Part shown: in pieces, positions 13,185 to 40,100 of the stretch
Layout: each line of letters begins with the position of its first letter
Numbering within the stretch: position 1 is the first letter of the stretch
DNA from: Apostichopus japonicus
Taxonomy: Eukaryota; Echinodermata; Holothuroidea; Aspidochirotida; Stichopodidae
Assembly: GCF_037975245.1 (NCBI RefSeq)
Contig: NC_092580.1
Location: 24,135,001 to 24,199,000, forward strand
Direction: 5' to 3'
DNA length: 64,000 nt
Program-made: the position numbers and the translations under genes
Notes under the pieces: model-generated
Database searches by the model: none
Seen by the model: only the letters and a program-made list of their open reading frames with translations
Told to the model about the DNA's origin: nothing

Positions 13185-13790
13185 ATACAGTCATTGGTTT
13201 TCCATGAGGAGTGCTATGGCATACTACTGTTCTACTCTATACTGCCAGTGGTCATGCATAGAAAGTACTCATGACACACTAACAGTTGTCATCCTTAGAG
13301 AGTACTCCTTGACACACTCTCAGTGGTCATCAATGGAGATTACTCATGAAACACTGCCATTGGTCATCCTTAGGGAGTACTCCTTGACATACTGCCAGTG
13401 GTCATCCATGAAAGGTACTCATGACACACTAACAGTGATCATCTTTAGAGAGTACTTCTTAACACACTAACAGTGGTCATCCATAGTGAGTACTCCTTGA
13501 CACACTGCCAGTGGTCATCCTTAGAGAGTACTCGTTGACATACTGCCAGGGGTCATCCATGAAAGGTACTCATGACACATTAACAGTGATCATCTTTAGA
13601 GAGTACTCCTTAACACACTAACAGTGGTCATCCATAGTGAGTACTCCTTGACACACTGCCAGTGGTCATCCATAGCTAGTACTCACGCACACTGCCAGTG
13701 ACCATGCACAAAGAATGTCAAAGACACAGTCATTGGTCATTGGCCAGCAGTGGTCATCCATGGAAAGTACATACGGTATGCTACCAGAGG
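13185..13790. repeat. Minisatellite downstream of KLHDC8, ~36-39 bp unit
   Basis: The unit alternates CAGTGGTCATCC, a TAGAGAGTACTC or TAGTGAGTACTC block, and TGACACACTGC. It recurs about 15 times with 5-20% variation. Neighbouring units pair into a higher-order period of roughly 75 bp (CATGAAAGGTACTCATGACAC alternating with TTAGAGAGTACTCCTTGACAC). GAGTACTC inside each unit is a perfect 8-bp palindrome. Open frames across the array come from the repeat and are not treated as genes. Confidence 0.8.
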
Positions 13791-17733: not shown

Positions 17734-20700
17734 TCAAGACAGGTACATAGCTACAGCCTGAGGATCTATCAAGGTTTGCTCCAGAGGGACATCGATGTTG
17801 TATTCTTTGGCCTGCTGTGCCCTCTGTCTAACCCTCTTCCCGCCTCTCGGAATCGGTAGCTCAGAATGATGAGCTGGCAGGGGCTCAGTGAAGAAGTATG
17901 GATGAAGGAGAGCCTGAAGGAAGAACATAAAAATATATTGAAAGTCAAATTCACAAAGGTTCTGATGAATCTACAAAGAAATGAAAGAATTCAAGTTCAT
18001 ATATCAAAGAATCTGCCCACTAGCCATTAGCTGCAACTGTTAACCTGCCATCTATGATCTGGGCTGTGATACAGGTTTTCTCAGTTGATCTACCTCACTG
18101 ACGAGTCATATCCTTGTTTATATAGTCATATATATTAACAGAACAAGTTGTAAGAAAAGCACTAAATTGTTTCACTATTATTGCATTTATAAGCTGTTGG
18201 AATATCAACCTTGGTTATAACTTAACCAGATTCATGAAATTACTTTTAACAAATCGGAAACAATATGTATGAGCTACTTTGAGCAAATCTTAAATGTTAC
18301 AAGCACAGCATTCTGGCATCGTTTGGAAGTTCATTAGCGGTTGATATGAAGAGAGTAATAACAGTCATGATGTAGTAGTTTCTATCATTTTACCTCTTTG
18401 GCCGATATCCTCTGCTTTGATGGATACACAAGGAATCGTTTCAGGAGATCAACAGCCTGCAAATGAGAAATTATTTTTGCTTTCTGTTAATTACTGAAAT
18501 ATAAAAAGTTGGTGTTAATTATTATTATAAATTATTTAAAAAAATTATTATAAATTTCCATGCAAATTAATTCTGTTGGGAAATGGCTTGCAGAAAGTTG
18601 TAAGACATTTTGGAATTTGTTTTTCAGAAACAGCAATTTTAGTTTACAGTTTTCAAGTTTTATGTCATGAAAGATAAATTACAGCATCTCACTTCATTTT
18701 TGGGTAGAACTGAGGCCCTTACAGCAGGATTCTTGTGGAGTCACTGACTGCAGCATTTGTATTATGACTATCAGGGGAAAAATTGATAAATGGACTCTTG
18801 TCTGTTTAATTTTGAGTGAGGCCTCTACTATAGACATGACTCACAACAATACGAACGCAGGAAGTCTACCTAAAACATGAAAACAAAAACACAGCAGTAA
18901 TTTATATCTTTGCATTTTGATTGCAGTGTAACTAAGCTCCTCTCAAATGACTCAGAGCTACTAAAATGTTTGTTAATTTGAGAAACAGGGAGTGTTAGCT
19001 CAGTGGTTAACGCTGGTACCTTCCAATCATAACATAAGGTTCCCGGTTCGAGTCACTTCAAAATTAATGTATGTTGTTGACAATTGACAGTTCATAATCA
19101 TGGACATTAAATATGAATGTAAGAGACAGCTTGCAGCTTTGATGAGCCAAATGAGGCTTCTTCGCGAGTTCCTGCTTGCAGGAGGATCTAAAATACATAC
19201 ATACATACACACATACATACACACATACAAACAAGGGTAATACGGGTCATCAGATTGAATCATCAAACTTTTCACATTTTCCTATTGGTAACCCTCATGG
19301 AATTTCTTTCCTCCATGAAAAATTTCAATCGTCATTCCTGACACTTATTAAATCTGGGTTTAACTACAAAGATTACAATGCTGAGAACTATTGAAAATGT
19401 TTCACAAGTTAAAGCATTCTAACATACTGAGTAATCTAGACAGCATTAAAGTTTCGAGTGGTCTCAGTATATGTAAAAGCAGTACCTGGGCTGATGCATC
19501 TGGAACTATCTCTTCCAGTGGAATCGCTGGATTCTCGGGGAAGGTGATCTTATTGTAATCTGGAAGGTCTTTCATACCCTAAAAAGAGATTTAAACATTT
19601 AATACCACATGAGATTAGGTATGATGATTTTTATTTCTTAATAGCAACCTTGATTATGAAGTGTGATTTATAAACAATTATGTCAATATATCCTTCACAT
19701 GCAATATGTGGTTGCTTATCATCATAGAATAATTGTATTCTACAGAGTGACAACAGGGTAAGCATTCCATGTTGTATAAACAGCGATAGCAGTATCAAGT
19801 ACAATTCCAGCGACCAAAATAATCACATCATTAGAAGCAATAGTAGCAAGAAACTTGATCTAGGCATCAAAACCATTTGCAGCTTCAAGCATTTTCAAGA
19901 TTCTCATGAAGCATTGATGAAGTTTTCCCCTTTTTGGCACTTCCAATCATCAGAATAATCATTAAATATTGTCCTCTTTAGAAGAATACAAATAACAATC
20001 ATTAAATAGTTTACAGGTTTTCAGTATTGCCCCCAAATATGCTAGAAAGTCAAATTAGTAGTCACTGCTACTGCAGTTCAAACTTCAACAAGCTGGTTAT
20101 AACTACTCTCAGAGCAGGTTTCCTTTCCATCTGGGACATTCTCGACTATCTAATTGAGTGTTTTGACAATTTATGAGAATAATGTGGATGGTGAGAAATG
20201 CTACTTTTGAAAACTATTACCAACTCCAGCATTTAAAACAGTTTGGAGAAACACTGGTAATTTTAACGAATTGAATTGTATAATTGAGTATTCAATAAAG
20301 TAACATTAGCTGGTAGAATTTGTTACCATTTTCATCTCATTTTAATTTCAAATAAGAAAGCATAAGATATCATACATTATATACTTTTGCCTTTCTTTGG
20401 TCAGAGCTTCAACAAATGGCCGTTTCTAGCTTCCATGCCGTTACATGCCCTATACTTAGTGTAACAGATATATATAGCAGTACTGTGCACAAACACATTC
20501 ACTCTTGCATGAAGTTAGTTTGATAGCTCCACTTACTGGCCATGTCTTTTCTGTTGGTGTCCCAAGCACTCTTCGCACGCAACACAACTGTTCAATGTCT
20601 GACTCCCCGGGGAAGAGTGGAGAATTGTTCAGCAGTTCACCAAAAATACATCCAACAGCCCTGGTAAAATAAATAAGTAAATATATGCAATAACATGAGG

Positions 20701-23700
20701 AGGGGTGTGAGGGAGAATGGGTGCTCTAATGTATATTGGATAGGTTAGATATGAAGGTAAATATCATTGTGAATCCATCGGACTGCTCCAAAGTTGCTTT
20801 GATTCACTCCTTCTGACAAAATGAAGTTATTTACAGATCAAAAACAGATTGCTAACAGTAAGTTGAACACGTCTCTTGCATGGGATAAACACACCTTTGT
20901 GGTAAAGTTAACAGTCACTAGTACCCATGGTGACATACACTGAGTATGGCAGTCTTCACTGATTCTTTTGTACTACCAGAAATACTTCTATTTCACTTTC
21001 TAGTCTGTTTAACAGAAACCACAAAGTCTACTTAACCAGTTTGAGTTTCTCCCGTATCTGTATACACTTGTTGGTAAAGAATGGCAGAGAGGAGGCCTAG
21101 AAACTACCTTGGTGAATTGATGTCCTGTTCATAGAATCCACAGTATACATTTTTCAAGAAAAAACAAGTTTTTTTGCTAAGATATGAATCATACTTACCA
21201 CAAGTCTACTCCTTCATCATATTTTCTGGCTCCATACAGCAACTCTGGAGCTCTGTACCACCTGGCAAAATAAATGCAAAAATTATAATCAAATAGTTAA
21301 GCAAATAATAATACATGTCAACACAGAGACTTTATCCGCACAGCATTTTGCTCATAATTTCTACATACTTTCTACTGACTTTGATTGAGCACTCACCGTG
21401 TCGCAACCTGGTGACTATGCTGTCTACCATCATCCATGATTCTACATACTGTCTACTGACTATGATTGAGCACTCACCGTGTTGCAAACTGGTGACTATA
21501 CTGTCTACCATCATCCATGATTCTACATACTGTCTACTGACTATGATTGAGCACTCACCGTGTTGCAACCTGGTGACTATACTGTCTACCATCATCCATG
21601 ATTCTACATACTGTCTACTGACTTTGATTGAGCACTCACCGTGCCGTAACCTGATGACTATACTGTCTACCATCATCCATGATTCTACACACTGTCTACT
21701 GACTTTGATTGAGCACTCACCGTGTAGCAACCTGATGACTATACTGTCTACCATCATCCATGATTCTACATACTGTCTACTGACTTTGATTGAGCACTCA
21801 CCGTGCCGTAACCTGATGACTATACTGTCTACCATCATCCATGATTCTACATACTGTCTACTGACTTTGAATTGAGCACTCACCGTGTTGCAACCTGATG
21901 ACTATACTGTCTACCATCATCCATGATTCTACATACTGTCTACTGACTTTGAATTGAGCACTCACCGTGTCGCAACCTGGTGACTATACTGTCTACCATC
22001 ATCCATGATTCTACACACTGTCTACTGACTTTGATTGAGCACTCACCGTGTTGCAACCTGGTGACTATACTGTCAACCATCATCCATGATTCTACATACT
22101 GTCTACTGACTTTGATTGAGCACTGACCGTGTAGCAACCTGGTTACTATACTGTCTACCATCATCCATGATTCTACATACTGTCTACTGACTTTGATTGA
22201 GTACTCACCGTGTTGCAACCTGGTGACTATACTGTCTCCCATCATCCATGATTCTACATACTGTCTACTGACTTTGATTGAGCACTCACCGTGTCGCAAC
22301 CTGGTGACTATACTGTCTACCATCATCCATGATTCTACATACTGTCTACTGACTTTGATTGAGCACTCACCGTGTCGCAACCTGGTGACTATACTGTCTA
22401 CCATCATCCATGATTCTACATACTGTCTACTGACTTTGATTGAGTACTCACCGTGTTGCAACCTGGTGACTATACTGTCTCCCGTCATCGTTGCTGAAGA
22501 TTCTAGCCAGTCCAAAATCTGCTATTTTAAGGTGACCTCTCTCACTGATCAAAAGGTTAGCTGGTTTCAAATCCTGAAGATAAAGGAAAGAATATTAACT
22601 GTACAAACATTGTTGCAAAGTTAATAGCAACAGTAAATAATCCTTATCATTGCACCAGAAAAGTATAAAGAAACATATTTTATTACAACAGGCAAAAATT
22701 TGGCTTCACATTATGCTGAATGTAGTTCCTTTAAAAAAAACTGCCTGGCAAACAGTAAATAATACTCAACCATAATAGGATGTATTCAGCATATGATGAG
22801 AAAATGGGATATATGACATTCCATACATCAATTTACTTTTGAAGAAATAAAGTTTTACCTACTTACTTACTTCCATAAGAAAAACTAGTATCTCTGAGTA
22901 TGTGGAAATATTATATAGTTTGTTATATAGTGCTTATAATATTGTAACACTTTCCTCTGTGAGTAGCGGCGACCAGCCGATTCAGGGTTCTTGGCCTAAG
23001 ATGTAGTATTGTAATTGGCCAGAGAATGAAGATGAACACAAAATAAATCCAGAGAGGTGATGGTATTTTTAACAGCGATATATTGAAAGGAAACTTATTA
23101 CAGCATGGTTAAGTGTCTTATACTGGATATGTGGTACAAACTTGAGGCTACGTGGCCCTGAAGCCTACCATCAAGAGTGTTTTGTCCAACAGCAACCAGA
23201 ATAGACTGGCCTGTCCCTCCCAGGTAATGCATTCTATATAAATCCCTTAACAATACATGGAAAAACCACATGTATACAATGATGAACTTTATCTAGCAAC
23301 TTAGCTTAAGACATAATACACAAATACTGCAGTGCATTCCTACCTTCCCCAAGCAATTGTACTCCTTTACAGAGATGAATGTGATCACATGAGTATCCCT
23401 AGAAAATATCAGTATCCCCAAAAAATGAGTATCCCTAGAAAATATGTGTGTTACATCACAATCCCAGGATAAGCCTGACACCACATGCCGATCCATAGGA
23501 GCAGCCCCTGAAAGCCATAATCTGCCAACAATTACAACTGGTTTACTTAATGCCAGGAGAGATAACCCCTATATAATTCCAAGGGGATTTAAACTACCAC
23601 AATGGTTCCACACAGAACTCTTATTACATCACAACTTTACAGTAACAGCATTACACTTTATTTAAAATATATTTAAAATAATCTTCTATAGTTTCTTAAC

Positions 23701-25998
23701 TTTTCTTTACTTAGTTATTGTAACTTGTGGATTTATTTTTGAGTAATTGATTTGAAAATAGACCTCACCCTGTGCATGATGGAGTTCTCATGGCAGTATG
23801 CAACCCCCTTGAGCAGCATCAGCATGTAGCTTTTAACCTGAGCTTCTGTCAGGGGTAACTTGGATTCTCTCAGGACCTCACTAAGATCAGACAGCATGAA
23901 GTCAAACACAAGGACAAACCCTGTTCCGTGCGGAAAGACATCTCGCAGTGTAACAACCTGTTTGATGAACAGTTACAATTTTATGCTGACGGTTTTCATC
24001 TAACATTGATGGTATCAAACATGAACATAGTTTTATAATAAATCGGCGAGTGAAAAGGTTGGTTTATTTATCAAAGATGTGTCAAAGAGAAGGAATCAAC
24101 CATAGCAATTATTTGCATTAATAAATGAGATGTGCTAAACAGAGCAGGTAGATCAGATTGAAGAACAATTCAAGGTAGATTTTGACATACCTCCAACAGA
24201 GTTTCAGGTAATGACTAAATTTAGAAGTTTGGATCTAACATTTTATTTACTCCATAAAATTTGGAACAAACACAGCACAGTACACACACAGCACACATTC
24301 AAACTGTAATTTAAACATTATTACAAATATATTCTAGATTTTAATGAAAGAAATGACCCAAATATGTGAAAACTTAAACACTTGTGTGACGCCACTTATT
24401 TTATTTACTTTATTTAAGAATCACACAGAGTACTGAAATAATCAAAATTTAGTCTATTTTCTCAGTTTTCTCATAACCAATATTTAATAAAGACTAAGTT
24501 TCTCGATCTTGCAGAAAATTGGAAAACTATAAACTAAAATTTAAGAAAAATAGATATCAATCAGAATCAAACAAAAAATGATATGCTACATATGTTGAAG
24601 TCAGAGAAATGCTTGTTCATCATTTTTTATGCTTTATGTCGTTTTGAAAGCAATTTGTTCCATTTAGTGGTAGGCAATTGTTCACATTATTCTAAGCAGT
24701 ACAAATGAGAAAATACTACTGATGTTTGAAGAAACAGAAACACCCTTTCTGTCAAGTCCTTCTATTTTGTGTAACAGCCTAATCGTTGTTTGTACCAGAG
24801 AGTTGTTATGGAACTCCCTGTTTGAACTAGAAGCTATACATGTCATGTGTGTACACAAAACTATACCAAAGGTTGATCCCCAAAAGTGTTTACAATATAT
24901 GCACATTCCTTGTGTTGGTATAAACCAACGTGATGAAACAAACTCTCACATTGCACATATGAAATGCATGGTTTGATATGAGAAAAGAATTTAAGCAAAG
25001 GATTTTGTTTCACTTTTATTTTTACAATTTATACAATCTCTGCTACCTCTGTAAAGTCTTATCACATATCCACATCATTTAACATACTCACGTGTTGGCT
25101 TTCCTCAATTTCCTGAAGAGCCTTTATTTCTCTGCAAAGAAGAGGAAATGAAACTACTGTATATCTAGAGAAACATTCATAGACTAATTCAGACATGCAT
25201 TCATACCATTAAAAGAATGCTATTAAATAGAGTAACTAAAACATGAGATGAACTACCTTTGAAAGATGAGGCTTATTCTTTTTCTATCTTGTCCCCTCAC
25301 TCCTTCATCCTGCCCCATTCTCCCACCCACCTTTCACCACCCCACCCTTGCCCCTCCGATCCTTAGTTTGCTTTCCTTCTGTTTTTTTTTCTGTGTTTTT
25401 TGTAAAGCATGTTTTACTGATGTACTTTGCCAACAATATTGATTGAATAAAGTACCTTAATGCTGTATTGGGAATTCCTTCATCAAGTTTTCTAAGAGGA
25501 ACTTTCTTCAGAGCTACTTCTTCCCCAGTCTGAAATGAAAGAAACATTATAAGATGCAATATTATTTTTTATTAAACAAACTAATGAAAAGGATGCAACA
25601 TGTACTGTAAATTCCTGCCAGTTCACATATCTAATGAACTTCGAAGCGGTAATTTGCATACATCATGTAAACATGCCCCAATAGTAAAAGAAATTCTTAA
25701 AAAGGAAATACGATTTGAAACTTTAAATTGCACCAGGAAACATAGTCCATACTGTTTACAGAGGACATAATTGGAAGAACTATGTGTCACAAATTCCTTG
25801 ACCACAGAAATGAAATGTTGTGTCTTCAGAATGGGACTGAAGACTTTAATACAGTTCTCGTGTGTGAAGTTGCAAGATGTCACATTAATGGCAGTGTATC
25901 TAAAGATGTACATAACATGTTACCTGAATATGTTTGGCTTTGAATACAATTCCATGTGCTCCTTCACCAATTCTTCCCAATATTGTGTATTGCTCCAT
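17734..25998 (-). CDS. CDK20: Cyclin-dependent kinase 20 (cell cycle-related kinase), complete
   Basis: Ten exons in transcript order, 25998-25924, 25529-25456, 25131-25092, 23957-23769, 22573-22452, 21261-21199, 20660-20537, 19578-19486, 18456-18394 and 17913-17734, join in frame to 340 residues (human CDK20 has 346). The start [16 protein letters not shown] includes the Gly-rich loop (GEGAHG, 11-16). The catalytic Lys is at 33 (VALKK), the cyclin-binding helix reads PNTALRE (45-51), the catalytic loop HRDLKPAN has Asp127, and DFG is at 145-147. VATRWYRAPE follows. The C-terminal [13 protein letters not shown] is a CDK20 signature. The kinase is known to activate the MAK/ICK ciliary kinases and to act in cilium-dependent Hedgehog signalling and the cell cycle. 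All catalytic residues are present, so it should be active. The exon-5 donor (GTGAGT, 22451) is the first of about 14 near-identical donors in a minisatellite. Intron 8 (18457-19485) carries a tRNA-type SINE. Confidence 0.95.
18988..19234 (+). mobile_element. tRNA-derived SINE with ATAC-repeat tail
   Basis: The head GGGAGTGTTAGCTCAGTGGT reads as a tRNA 5' half with a polymerase III A box (TAGCTCAGTGGTTAACGC). A B box (GGTTCGAGTC) follows at about 19043, at a tRNA-like distance. The anticodon region does not fold as a normal arm, so this is not a functional tRNA. After a tRNA-unrelated body with CGCGAGTTCCTGCTTGCAGGAGG, the element ends in an (ATAC)n tract at 19191-19234. It lies in CDK20 intron 8, antisense to the gene. 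No clear target duplication was found. Confidence 0.72.
21369..22495 (-). repeat. 81-bp minisatellite made of the CDK20 exon 5-intron 5 junction
   Basis: A unit of 81 bp (82 in two places) recurs with its splice-donor block (plus-strand CACCG) ending at 21396, 21477, 21558, 21639, 21720, 21801, 21883, 21965, 22046, 22127, 22208, 22289, 22370 and 22451. The last is the real exon-5 donor. On the minus strand each unit carries about 36 bases matching the exon 5 end (GACAGTATAGTCACCAGGTT then GCAACACG), the donor GTGAGT, and about 43 intronic bases. One copy (22127) has GTCAGT instead. The first unit next to the exon (about 22230) shares the exon's CTCCC variant, suggesting growth outward from the exon. 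81 is a multiple of 3, so long open frames cross the array on both strands; they are repeat artefacts. Confidence 0.93.
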
Positions 25999-34100: not shown

Positions 34101-37100
34101 CACATGACAATACGTCATGAAGATAAAGAGCTGATCTGGTCTTGAAGTTTCCAAATAAATATTTGTTCATCTCTTGTTTTTTTTCATTACAATATTACAC
34201 AATGAACTTGATCTTTTACAAAGCACTGTTATGCGTATTATAGTATAATAATGACTCAGATCGTGTCTCGAAAAGTTGGGGGTTCGTGGAAAACTCTGAC
34301 ATCCACAGGGGATTTGTGTGGGGATAAAGTTAGATAAACCCTGATCTAGTGTGTCAGCTGTTGAACTGTGTGGTGATCCCAAATTTGGGAGAGGTGGCAA
34401 CAAGTTACAATTGCCACTTTATTTGTGAGCAGCTTAGTGCAAAGGGAAAGTGTGAGTTGTGAGTGTCTAGCTAGCTCCAAACGTTGTAGTCAGTTCTGCA
34501 GAGTTTAATTCGTAGGAGAGTAAGATTGAATATTGCTAGTTTTACTAACGTTAAGATAAAAACATTATTCCACTAATTAAAGACTGTAGTGTGAAGTAAA
34601 GTTGAGGTTAAAGGAGATGATGAAGAATCAGATGAACCTATTTTTATTGTAGATCAATGTTATCCCAAATTTGATTTGTATCTATTCTAGTATTCACTGG
34701 GCACCTTGAATGACTATAACACCATGAAGAGAGCTGCAAGGGAGAAAGCAGGACTTCAGCCTATCCCTGAAGAGACAATGGAAATAGCAAGGAATATGAG
34801 AGCCTCCTCACCCCCCACAGGGGTAGGGGACATCCTTGATCCACAGAAGAGGGGTACAAAAGGCAGCAAAAGGGTGTGTGTATATATGTGTACAGCTTTG
34901 TTGTGCATTAATTACCACTTCTGTGTGCAAGTTGCATAACAAGATTTGAGTTGAATTTTATTTTAATTTCAGTCAACGTTTGAATATTTATTAATTAATC
35001 ATTGATGGTAACAGTGGAGAGCAAAACTCTTGATTAATTTTGCTATTTACAATTTGATATTGGTTACTTTTGCTTGCTTGAATAGAAAAAAATTTGATTG
35101 AATTTGTTTGGTAGATATGTATATCCTGTCTTATTTGATCAATTGCTCTCAATGTCTGAATAATGCTTCAAGGTTTGGTGATCAAATACACTTTTTTGCA
35201 TTAGTGTGCAATAACATGCCTGTCATATTATCATTTAATATGTCCTATTATTGCAGAGATTTTCAAGTCCATTAGGAAGGCAACGAAATGAAAGTTTAAA
35301 GCCACTTTACATAGTTGTATGCAGACTTATGCTCTAAAAAGGACCTATTTATCCTGCACACTTGCCGGTTGTACATGATGACATTTGTTTTGTTGTGATC
35401 CTTCCATGGTGATTTTTATATTGAACATTGCCAAGTTGCAAACATTGGGTTGTGACCACTAAATTATTTCCTGAACGTGCTCCTCTCGTACCTGTGTAAG
35501 TTTTACTCTGTACTTCCAGCTTCCATAGCTAGCGCTGTTTGGTAGCCTTCGGCAGTACACCATCGACCACCCACCTCTACCTGCCCCACCCTTTCCTCCC
35601 CAGAGCCACCAACTACCCTTTCATCGTTCCACCGTCATTATAACATGCTACATGTAAGGAATTCTACTTTGGAATACTGAACTCCTTATTTTATGCTTGT
35701 ACTGTAGAGCCTTGTGAAACAGAATGGTATAGATGAGCCAATGCCTGGCGAATCCGACAATGGCGATGAAGATGATGAGAACGGAAAGGATGAAAATAGT
35801 GATGAAGATGAGGAGGTCGACATGAGACCGCCAGATACACCAAGAGAACCCAGGATATTACCATGGACTCCAAAAGTCAGGTAGGTTAACACAGTACCAG
35901 AAGTATCAGTAATACAGGTTTGTGGTCTTAGCATGGAGTGATAAAACATGTGGAGTGTATCGTGAAGTTATACCTTTGTAGTTTGGCCTAAGAAGTATGT
36001 CCAAGGATCACTCTCCTCTGCTCCCTGTCTCTCTTCTCCTCCTCCTCCTCCTCCTGCTCCTCCTCCTCCTCCTCCTCCTCCTCCTCCTCCTCCTCCTCCT
36101 CCCAGTGGAATATGGAACTTTAAGACACAAAGGAAATGGTCAGAACTAATGACAATTTCTCTTTATGAGGAGTCACTAATCACCTATGAAAAAGATGTTT
36201 TGAATGTAGGCTTTTGATCAACTGTATGTTACTACATGTATTCGAAATTGCTTTTCATCATTGAAGTATTTGGATGTTTTATTTGTTGTTTCTCCTTACA
36301 GAGAGAAAGAATTGGATAATTTTCTGGACCACACAAGAGCAAAATTTGTTGGTTATCAAGTTGGAAAGTAAGAACTTTTGTCCTCAATGTCATCCCATCT
36401 GCTGAAGTTTTTAATTGTTAAATAAGCTTTGTTTATTTACCTGTGATGTATAAAAAGCAGCAATCAAGAATTGTTGTCTAGTAAGGTAGCCTGTAAGTGT
36501 CACCTACCCTTCGGGTCTTGAAATAGAATATTCTGAGAGACTTTCTATACATAACAGACATGATGTAAAGCTGCTTTTTGCGTTCACAGCTCGTCAACAG
36601 CAGATTTAGCCCAATCTGTTTGTTCTACATTCTGCTGTTACAAGAGATGTAAGGAGAAAACAAATAGCTTTATCAGTTTTTTTTTCCTTTAAGCTTTTAA
36701 TTAGGAGTTAACTTCACAGGTTTGCAATATAAACTGCAAGTTTTCTAATGAAACAGTGAAATATTACACCAGAGTTGCAAGACCAAAATTTGTCTGTATT
36801 GGATTAATCAGTCAATTATTTGCTTATTACCAGCAGCAAGATTGTGCTTGACACATAGGTCCCCTTTTTCTTGGAATCCAGAAAGTGAGGTAGGCTGGTT
36901 AAAGGTATTTCTTTTCTTTTCCTTTAGTGATAGAGAATCTCTTGCTGGTTTACCACAACCGATCCACGAGGGTGTCAGTGTATTAAAGAAAGTAAGTGTA
37001 AATTTTGCAACAGAACATTAGGTTTTTTATGTTTGAAAACGTCATGAAAATATTTGGTATCAACTCCGTGAGCATATATGCTCATGTCGGTTTGTTTACC

Positions 37101-40100
37101 CAAACGATTTACTATATAGCCATTATATATTGCCATTAAATTTGATTTGGCATAGTTCAGGATTTTTTGTTTAAAGGTAATTACCAACTCATGTGTTAGC
37201 TCAACTTGAATAGGACCTTTCATGAACTTTGGTAACAAGATAGTGACCATGCAGTGTCAAAGGTCATCTCAGAGTGAATTTTGAAACACTAAAATAATGT
37301 AAATGCCTCCCTACATTGTCTTGATAAACCTCATTTTCACACTACCCTGTGATGACATCATCTGTTGTGAATGCTTTGAGAATGTGATCACAAGGAAATG
37401 AGTGTCTTTGGTAGTTGGCTGTTGTAGGCTTTCCTCTGTGTGGAGGTTAATGGTATAAATGAATGAATTGATATAAATATATTCCACATACATTATTTTC
37501 CATAAATACAAACACTGTTTTCACTGTTCATTTTCCAGCATGTTTACATATCTCTCTCTGAATTGCAAATCAAGAAAGAGGAAGAAATTAATGAACATCC
37601 ACTATCAATGGTGAGTGAATACACCTGTAACCAGTTATGTGAGTGAATACACCTGTAACCAGTTAGGTGTGAGTGAATACACCTGTAACCAGTTAGGTGT
37701 GAGTGAATACACCTGTAACCAGTTAGGTGTGAGTGAATACATCTGGTACCAGTTAGGTGTGAGTGAATACACCTGTAACCAGTTAGGTGTGAGTGAATAC
37801 ACCTGTAACCAGTTAGGTGTGAGTGAGTACCTATAACCAGTTAGGTGTGAGTGAATGCATCTGTAACCAGTTAGTTGTGAGTGAATACACTTGTAACCAG
37901 TTAGGTGTGAGTGAATTCACCTGTTACCAGTTAGGTGTGAGTGAATACACTTGTAACCAGTTAGGTGTGATGGAATACACCTGTAACCAGTTAGGTGTGA
38001 GTGAATACACATGTAACCAGTTAGGTGTGAGTGAATACACCTGTAACCAGTTAGGTGTGAGTGAATATACATGTAACCAGTTAGGTGTGAGTGAATACAC
38101 CTGTAACCAGTTAGGTGTGAGTGAATACACCTGTAACCAGTAAGGTGTGAGTGAATACACCTGTAAACAGGTGTGAGTGAATACACCTGAAACCAACTGA
38201 AAATAGAATTCAGTCCAGAAAGACAGGACAAAGTCAAGCTGGTACTGTCAAACTATTACTCCTTCTTGGTTATGACCAACAGATGAATGCAGTTGTAAAT
38301 AGATGTGTAGTTAATGGAATAATAATATTGTACACATTTTACTGAGCAAAATCTATGAAAATGTACTTCACCATTTCTATTAAGAATCACCAGCCTGATT
38401 TTTTTGACTGGATTATGTTCTTGAGAGAATCTTGACCCTGCATTTTACACCATTTTACCAAGACGAATCTTTTAAGATGTACGCTACAGTGTCTGTTAAG
38501 TTTTGACCAGGATTCATCTGATTCTGTTACTGGACTCTGTTAACTTGAAATCCAGACCCTGCTGTCAGGATTTTTTTTTTCCCTAATGCTTTACTTGTTT
38601 GTTTCAGGCTGAAGAGACTATACCTAACAATCCCACTGAGATCCTTTACCAGGCTATGTTAGCCAACTTGCCACAGTATATGGTAAGAAACACAGCGTAT
38701 ATGGATCCTTGATTTGTAGTTATGAAAAAAGGTGTAGTAGTAGTATAATCGTGTGTGTTTAGTAAAATGCTTAATTATGTTTTAAGAAGTATATTTTAAG
38801 GTCACTGCAATGTAGAAAGAGAAGACAATTTGTTAAGATTATCAGCCAAGATCTGCCTACGAAAATTGTTTGTAAAGGCCTAAGTGGTATATATAACTGA
38901 CTAGTCATTTTGTAGAATATGTTAGTGAGTGCATGGGATATTTGTGGGCATGGGTATGCATACTATATAACTTTACTATATACACCCCTGGCAGAATTCA
39001 ACCAAATCATGTTTGCATTGCTTACATTGCATTACATATCATGCTTACATATCATGCTTACATATATGTTGAAGCTGCATTTTGTGTTAAGGTGGTAGCA
39101 TACATGACATGTTTAGAGGAACAAGTTCGTCCAAACACAGAAATTTATGTGGTTTACATGCAGTCTATCAAAGTCATACCAGAAATGTTGAAATTAGGCA
39201 CAGTATTTGCCAATGAAGCAAAAGAAGACATTGTATTTATTTGAGGTTTGCATTAGATGTTATTTAAGAGAGAGCAAGTAATTGTAACCAAAGACATCCA
39301 ATCATGTGGAATTTGGACATGGCTTAGCCAGAGCACAGACAAATTTACATCAAAAACTCAACATGTACCTTCAATGATGCATTTCAAAGCTAATTTGATG
39401 CTAGCTGGTTAGGGGTGGGGGTGTTGTGGGGGGAGCTGCTGAACTAGTCAAGCATCTCACCTGCAAGCTCCTTTTCGATGGATAAACCCATAACTCATGG
39501 CAATGTAACATTTGTTTCACAGAAATGGCTAAAATTGCATGTAATGAAATGTCGAAGGGCGAGGGAGTTATGTCTCCACTAAATACGTTGCTAGTTTCAA
39601 CAAGTGTAGACTTTGTCATATGTAGTGAATATGCAAATCAAACTGAATGAGGTTAGTTTATGGTTTTGTACATTCTTGTATGGATAGAAGAATCTGTACT
39701 TATTCCTGGACCTGTGCAAAGTTTTCTAAAGTTCCTGATTGGTTAAAGAGGAGTTAGATTGATTTGCCATTCATTTCTTGTAGATATCCCTCCTCAAGAT
39801 CCTTCTAGCCGCTGCACCGACATCAAAGGCCAAAACAGATTCTATCAACATCTTGGCTGATGTTTTGCCGGAAGAAATGCCGTAAGTGTCAGAGTTTGCC
39901 ATCTTGAAGGTAGAACTGATCTTCAATGTTTTTTGTTTTATCCCTACCAGTGAATTTACTTGTTTTGTGCTAAATGCTAATCTACTAACAAGAACCTTTG
40001 TATGAAATGACATAAATATGAGATGGCTTGAGAAATAAGATTCTGCTTCGATCCAATGTCTAAACCTCTGACTTTATTATTTACCTTGTTATATTTTTGT

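Follow-up and report, generated by a model that had tools for sequence, protein, structure and literature searches.

The name mirages was given to tandem repeats lying over exon-intron boundaries in the Adh3 gene of amphioxus (as cited in PMC3087553 and PMC3902484). Further amphioxus mirages are described in the globin genes BflGb6 and BflGb9 (PMC3087553) and in PGBD5, with troponin C also named (PMC3902484). According to these two papers, the units are 10-160 bp long, splice signals are present in many copies, the arrays are unstable in length and regular splicing is undisturbed (PMC3087553, PMC3902484). A mirage-based model of intron gain was put forward for the globins (PMC3087553). In human segmental duplications, internal tandem repeats at exon-intron boundaries are reported to be able to alter splicing (PMC2812944), tandem genomic duplication is described as an accepted route to introns (PMC3443670), and U1 bound downstream of the natural donor is reported to enhance exon 11 of human PAH (PMC5933811).

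The window analyzed here is a stretch of 64,000 nucleotides from the sea cucumber Apostichopus japonicus, and it holds an array of 14 donor copies in the CDK20 gene. When this array was compared with the amphioxus mirages, several shared characters were observed. The CDK20 unit consists of an exon end, the junction and an intron start (38 + 43 nt), GT is kept in all 14 copies, the gene is intact with its own junction at the array end, and the inner copies are concerted while the edge copy is diverged. The CDK20 array is found in an echinoderm whereas the mirages belong to a cephalochordate, and it is known from sequence alone. Copy numbers in the five clear donor arrays of this study range from 11 to about 20, compared with 3 and 6 in the two haplotypes described for amphioxus BflGb6. 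No case of an exon-intron boundary minisatellite in echinoderms was found in the open-access literature searched. We consider the CDK20 array a mirage-type structure and, as far as that literature shows, echinoderms a new phylum for mirages.

The human boundary repeats are likewise minisatellites at exon-intron borders; they are described with copy-number differences between paralogs and with transcript evidence, whereas the CDK20 array is seen in DNA only (PMC2812944). The intron gain described in PMC3443670 also involves a tandem duplication carrying splice signals. There, the new intron lies between two AGGT copies, while in CDK20 an existing donor is copied inside an ordinary intron. PAH and CDK20 both have extra U1 sites at the intron start, an intronic motif with a reported effect in PAH (PMC5933811) and 13 putative sites in CDK20.

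The CDK20 gene and its array of 14 donors

The window contains an intact CDK20 gene on the minus strand, in which all introns are GT-AG. The features of the gene and of the array are as follows.

17734..25998, minus strand: CDK20 coding region of 10 exons and 340 aa (spliced ORF)
22452..22573, minus strand: CDK20 exon 5, 122 nt, phase remainder CG (spliced ORF; Pkinase match, E-value 1.3e-09)
21262..22451, minus strand: CDK20 intron 5, 1190 nt (GT-AG borders)
21199..21261, minus strand: CDK20 exon 6 (spliced ORF)
22446..22451, minus strand: authentic 5' splice site GTGAGT, read as ACG/GTGAGT (the reading frame carries on into exon 6)
21354..22489, minus strand: 14-unit array, the last 38 nt of exon 5 plus 43 nt of intron 5 starting with the donor (TRF, donor positions, copy alignment and genome search)
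22122..22127, minus strand: the sole altered decoy donor, GTCAGT (U1 duplex -6.3 versus -10.5 to -10.8 kcal/mol)
21391..21396, minus strand: intron-most decoy donor, GTGAGT, within the most diverged copy (donor positions and copy alignment)

The gene identity and the exon 5 junction proposed by the first-pass annotation were borne out by the 340-aa spliced ORF and by its 67 % identity (227/339) to human CDK20. The name CDK20 depends on this comparison, because a PDB search with the kinase protein placed CDK7 on top and none of the best 60 of 2720 matches was named CDK20.

TRF called the repeat at 21359-22489 (period 81, 13.9 copies, 95 % matches, score 2027), and 14 donors were located. The G of each GT on the minus strand lies at 22451 (the real donor), 22370, 22289, 22208, 22127 (GTCAGT), 22046 and 21965 for donors 1 to 7, and at 21883, 21801, 21720, 21639, 21558, 21477 and 21396 for donors 8 to 14. 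Donor-to-donor spacing is 81 bp in eleven cases and 82 bp in two. These results agree with the earlier claims of about 14 tandem copies with their own donors, of an 81-bp unit, and of thirteen copies after the real junction that all keep GT with a single GTCAGT (GTGAGT is present in 13/14). As for the make-up of the unit, about 43 intronic bases had been proposed and were recovered (43 nt, or 44 in two copies), but the exonic part measures 38 nt and not about 36. The gene's own junction sits at one end of the array, and the ORF runs intact through copy 1. The sequence GACGGGAGACAG tags the true exon 5 end and GATGGTAGACAG tags most decoys.

When the whole genome (671,581,487 bases in 35 contigs) was searched at the DNA level with the CDK20 unit, 14 matches were listed, every one of them at the CDK20 locus, and there is therefore no sign of a dispersed element. 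Chance origin of the repeat structure is not an issue.

Subtraction of 13 spacings for the 13 extra copies reduces intron 5 to about 135 nt. About 90 nt are left between the array end and the exon 6 acceptor. Intron 5 itself could be the product of a tandem duplication of which the repeats are the remains, as tandem duplication is accepted as an intron source (PMC3443670) and a mirage model exists for globins (PMC3087553). However, no copy of the unit extends up to the acceptor at 21262 or into exon 6 (the last of the 14 listed matches ends at 21359), and the acceptor, an ordinary TTTTGCCAG, lies beyond the array. Splice sites of intron 5 that are both copies of one duplicated segment were not found, as the unit matches stop short of the acceptor, and we consider such an intron-gain intermediate very unlikely.

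A separate, complex minisatellite with periods of 38, 75, 113 and 151 bp was observed at 13239-13700, lying 3' of the CDK20 coding region.

Variation among the CDK20 copies

A one-base insertion was taken out of copies 7 and 8 before the copies were compared. Relative to the consensus, copies 2-13 carry 25 differences, of which 19 fall in the 38 exonic positions, one in the donor and five elsewhere. Among the 81 nine-base windows of the unit, 31 are as invariant as the donor 9-mer. Conservation of the donors beyond the rest of the unit was thus not found with nine-base windows, a test of low power given 25 differences in copies 2-13. The exonic parts of the decoys carry missense changes and copy 6 has one stop; the residues of copy 1 are those of the commonest copies.

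The inner copies 2-13 share 0.93-1.00 identity among themselves. Copies 2, 3 and 7 are identical once the insertion is removed, as are copies 9 and 11. Divergence is greatest in copy 14 at the edge, with 0.86-0.91 identity to the other copies. Inner homogeneity together with a diverged edge is ordinary minisatellite turnover, as described for mirages; selection acting on the donors was not apparent, although the conservation test has little power. Copy 4 has the variants of the exon copy and 99 % identity to copy 1. Exchange between decoys and the true exon end may therefore go on, and this would not obviously be harmless.

Copy-number errors are common in tandem arrays, and an amphioxus mirage is reported to have had an aberrant draft version (PMC3087553). 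A repeat collapsed or expanded during assembly is nevertheless an extremely unlikely explanation here, since many CDK20 copies bear their own variants, similar arrays are present at other loci and the published A. japonicus assembly is described as built from HiFi reads. The arrays at other loci are described below. HiFi reads are longer than a 1.1-kb array.

Splicing capacity of the donors

U1 pairing is about equal in 13 of the 14 donors (-10.5 to -10.8 kcal/mol), with -6.3 kcal/mol for GTCAGT. Within exon 5 and intron 5, the real donor ranks with the best U1 matches, and 12/13 decoys lie within 0.3 kcal/mol of it. Decoys other than GTCAGT could compete, because their U1 match equals that of the real donor.

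When donors 22370, 22289 and 21396 were translated, TGA followed directly after the exon 5 Arg (residue 167), as the first-pass annotation had predicted; the same stop is expected for every decoy because the first junction is common to all. The stop lies 77 nt ahead of the next exon junction for donor 22370 and 1051 nt ahead for donor 21396, the two decoys measured. The usual rule is that a stop codon far enough ahead of an exon junction leads to mRNA decay. By this rule decay is predicted rather than protein, and decoy use would give no useful truncated kinase. The truncated isoforms suggested earlier are therefore unsupported.

The same figures fit a splicing dampener, in which some transcripts use donors 2-14, end in TGA after Arg167 and undergo nonsense-mediated decay, so that array length sets the CDK20 level. 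Minisatellites have reportedly been linked to alternative splicing in C. elegans, which would be in keeping with this. So would the human repeats at exon-intron boundaries that can change splicing (PMC2812944). We still hold a dampener to be unlikely, as conservation of the donors does not rise above that of the unit around them, and as amplified donors occur in other genes too, with the decoys of one of them (STRIP, below) weaker than its real donor.

It is improbable that the array serves as a landing site where decoy-bound U1, without splicing, strengthens the definition of exon 5. The PAH case provides a precedent (PMC5933811), and about 1.1 kb holds 12 decoy sites about equal to the real donor plus one weaker site. 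However, the real donor is already among the best matches, the donors again do not stand out from the unit by their conservation, and neither AATAAA nor ATTAAA, which U1 could suppress, was found in intron 5. This last result also leaves the U1-array role proposed earlier with no such motif in the intron to protect.

Pseudo-exons within the array were rejected. No good acceptor was found inside the array, the best candidate having 10/20 pyrimidines compared with 14/20 in the true acceptor.

Neighbouring units are predicted to fold together (z -2.75; 3/200 shuffles as good). At the short span, the first donor ranked first or second of the 14 in predicted accessibility; at both longer spans it ranked between lowest and fourth lowest. 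As no consistent gain in accessibility was observed for the first donor, we rejected the idea that the decoys are hidden by RNA structure. By eye, the donor GGTGA of most units within 22208-22489 (minus strand) can pair with TCACC or TCATC of the exon part, and some units there contain the palindrome GTTGCAAC.

A second array in the STRIP gene

The window contains another donor-anchored array, on the plus strand.

37539..37610, plus strand: STRIP exon ending at the amplified donor, ATG/GTGAGT (STRIP1 match 7k36_I, E-value 1.7e-27, when joined with the next two exons)
37611..38195, plus strand: donor-anchored array with a 30-bp unit starting GTGAGTGAATACACCTGTAACC, 19.8 copies (TRF)

The intron that holds this array spans 37611-38607. 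The gene was called from the three joined exons (E-value 1.7e-27 to human STRIP1) and an upstream exon (E-value 1.4e-06), and Pfam matches to N1221 and DUF3402 flank the array exon, one on either side. The peptide of 37539..37610 by itself gave no match in PDB or Pfam. When the frame is read on through the STRIP donor, a stop follows 11 codons later. Of the 19 GTGAGTG sites counted, the first paired with U1 at -10.0, 16 at -7.3 and two at -6.3, and the STRIP decoys are thus weaker than the real STRIP donor. A (CTC)22 tract is also present at 36036-36102, probably in a STRIP intron.

Donor arrays at sampled exons

A sample of 157 exon loci was drawn from three protein families (77 kinase, 19 AAA and 61 kinesin loci), in which some regions overlap. 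The 77 kinase regions were picked by eye from 134 matches, those left out being mostly longer and some paralogous or overlapping; all 19 AAA matches were taken, and the kinesin loci are the first 61 of 126 matches. For the array coverage given further below, TRF arrays were counted from a period of 20, 2.8 copies and a score of 100 upward.

Arrays with a score of at least 100 overlapped the matched exon part at 3/157 loci (L018, L019 and L055), all on the donor side, the donors being presumed from the frame and the match ends. This rate has a 95 % interval of 0.4-5.5 % and becomes 2/156 with paralogs counted once. When these regions were refetched at greater length, the CDK-like exon of L018 (refetched as L164) gave 70 bp x 12.0, its paralog L019 (L165) gave 70 bp x 11.0, and the kinase exon of L055 (L166; FELLTG followed by R/GTAATC) gave 42 bp x 19.3. 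An array starting just past the donor of a kinesin exon (L126, refetched as L167) was not counted, as its first unit is too degenerate.

The two CDK-like arrays (871-1705 in L164 and 869-1633 in L165, both on the reverse complement of the locus) lie about 3.3 Mb apart on one contig. Aligned stretches of these paralogous regions are about 92-94 % identical and the arrays differ by one copy, so a donor-spanning array can persist and change length. As to length variation, CDK20 is represented by a single haplotype; at this other locus the two paralogs hold 12.0 and 11.0 copies.

No array with a score of at least 100 lay over the upstream edge of the matched exon part (0/157, upper bound 2.3 %). 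In L007, 4 bases of a weak T-rich 10-bp tract (score 53) extend over that edge. In L117 (560-877, reverse complement), a 168-bp two-copy duplication runs across the acceptor of a kinesin exon into the beginning of that next exon, and is the acceptor-side counterpart of the donor arrays.

Judged from these sequences, CDK20 is not the sole gene with an amplified donor in the A. japonicus genome, and the sample suggests that donor-spanning arrays are not rare in it.

Genome-wide controls

We also considered donors as a hot spot for arrays. This was rejected, as arrays across the 157 loci covered 1.9 % of the 10 nt directly following the matched exon part and 6.0 % deeper in the intron, at 201-380 nt. 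On the upstream side, the two corresponding values were 0 % and 2.5 %. In the whole genome, three GTGAGT in tandem were found 8087 times compared with 7471 for the reversed pattern (8 % more), where the hexamer control overlaps its own pattern and the first matches, those listed, come largely from a few long arrays. Two CAGGTRAGT in tandem were found 181 times compared with 176 for the reversed pattern. As the patterns are barely above their reversed controls, the raw matches do not point clearly to donor motifs being enriched in arrays across the genome.

Most simply read, the introns of this genome are rich in minisatellites, and arrays taking in a donor are tolerated, with acceptor-spanning ones rarer. 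The donor/acceptor asymmetry is suggestive only. A decoy or U1-array function, as first proposed for CDK20, gains no support: the donors are not conserved above the unit, arrays are not denser beside exons, and they occur in other genes as well.

Possible donor arrays with CAGGTRAGT in many units of about 40-54 bp were noted at C1:4703609-4705359, C2:23925275-23926664, C2:28048938-28050349 and C9:2047527-2048662. The 16,099-base mitochondrial contig has the order cox1-nad4L-cox2-atp6-cox3-nad3-nad4-nad5-nad6(-)-cob-nad1-nad2, with the names beyond cox1 read from frames; this order fits that of sea urchins and sea cucumbers.

Discussion

The CDK20 array is probably a nearly neutral minisatellite of the mirage type that lies across a donor by chance, and the donor next to the exon is probably the one in use. 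A tandem duplication across the CDK20 5' splice site would have started it, and slippage or unequal exchange would then have made it grow. The exon-adjacent donor would be paired with the exon 5 acceptor by exon definition (122 nt, as against up to about 1,180 nt for donor 14), and the 13 decoys would depart with the excised intron 5. Use of the first donor leans here on general knowledge of exon definition, because neither U1 pairing nor accessibility consistently favours it. The few mis-spliced mRNAs would end in TGA after Arg167 and then be degraded, and the array would be close to neutral.

A broader proposal is that donor arrays occur at roughly 2 % of sea cucumber donors and go with either an unusually strict exon-adjacent rule or a length-variable tuning of mRNA. 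We regard this proposal as doubtful. If the sample rate of 3/157 held, arrays would lie at a great many junctions; and if the proposal were true, a strict donor rule or tuner arrays would form a genome-wide class of natural splice-competition experiments.

Artificial constructs are the usual means of studying how the spliceosome chooses among equally strong donors. CDK20, with 14 donors in a common context of 38 exonic and 43 intronic nt, is a natural test of donor choice, and donor usage would be readable from RNA because many copies are marked by variants. The L164/L165 paralog pair offers a way to date the persistence of an array. If junctions of this kind are not rare, false alternative donors would have to be reckoned with in gene prediction and short-read mapping, and the mirages of amphioxus would extend to echinoderms.
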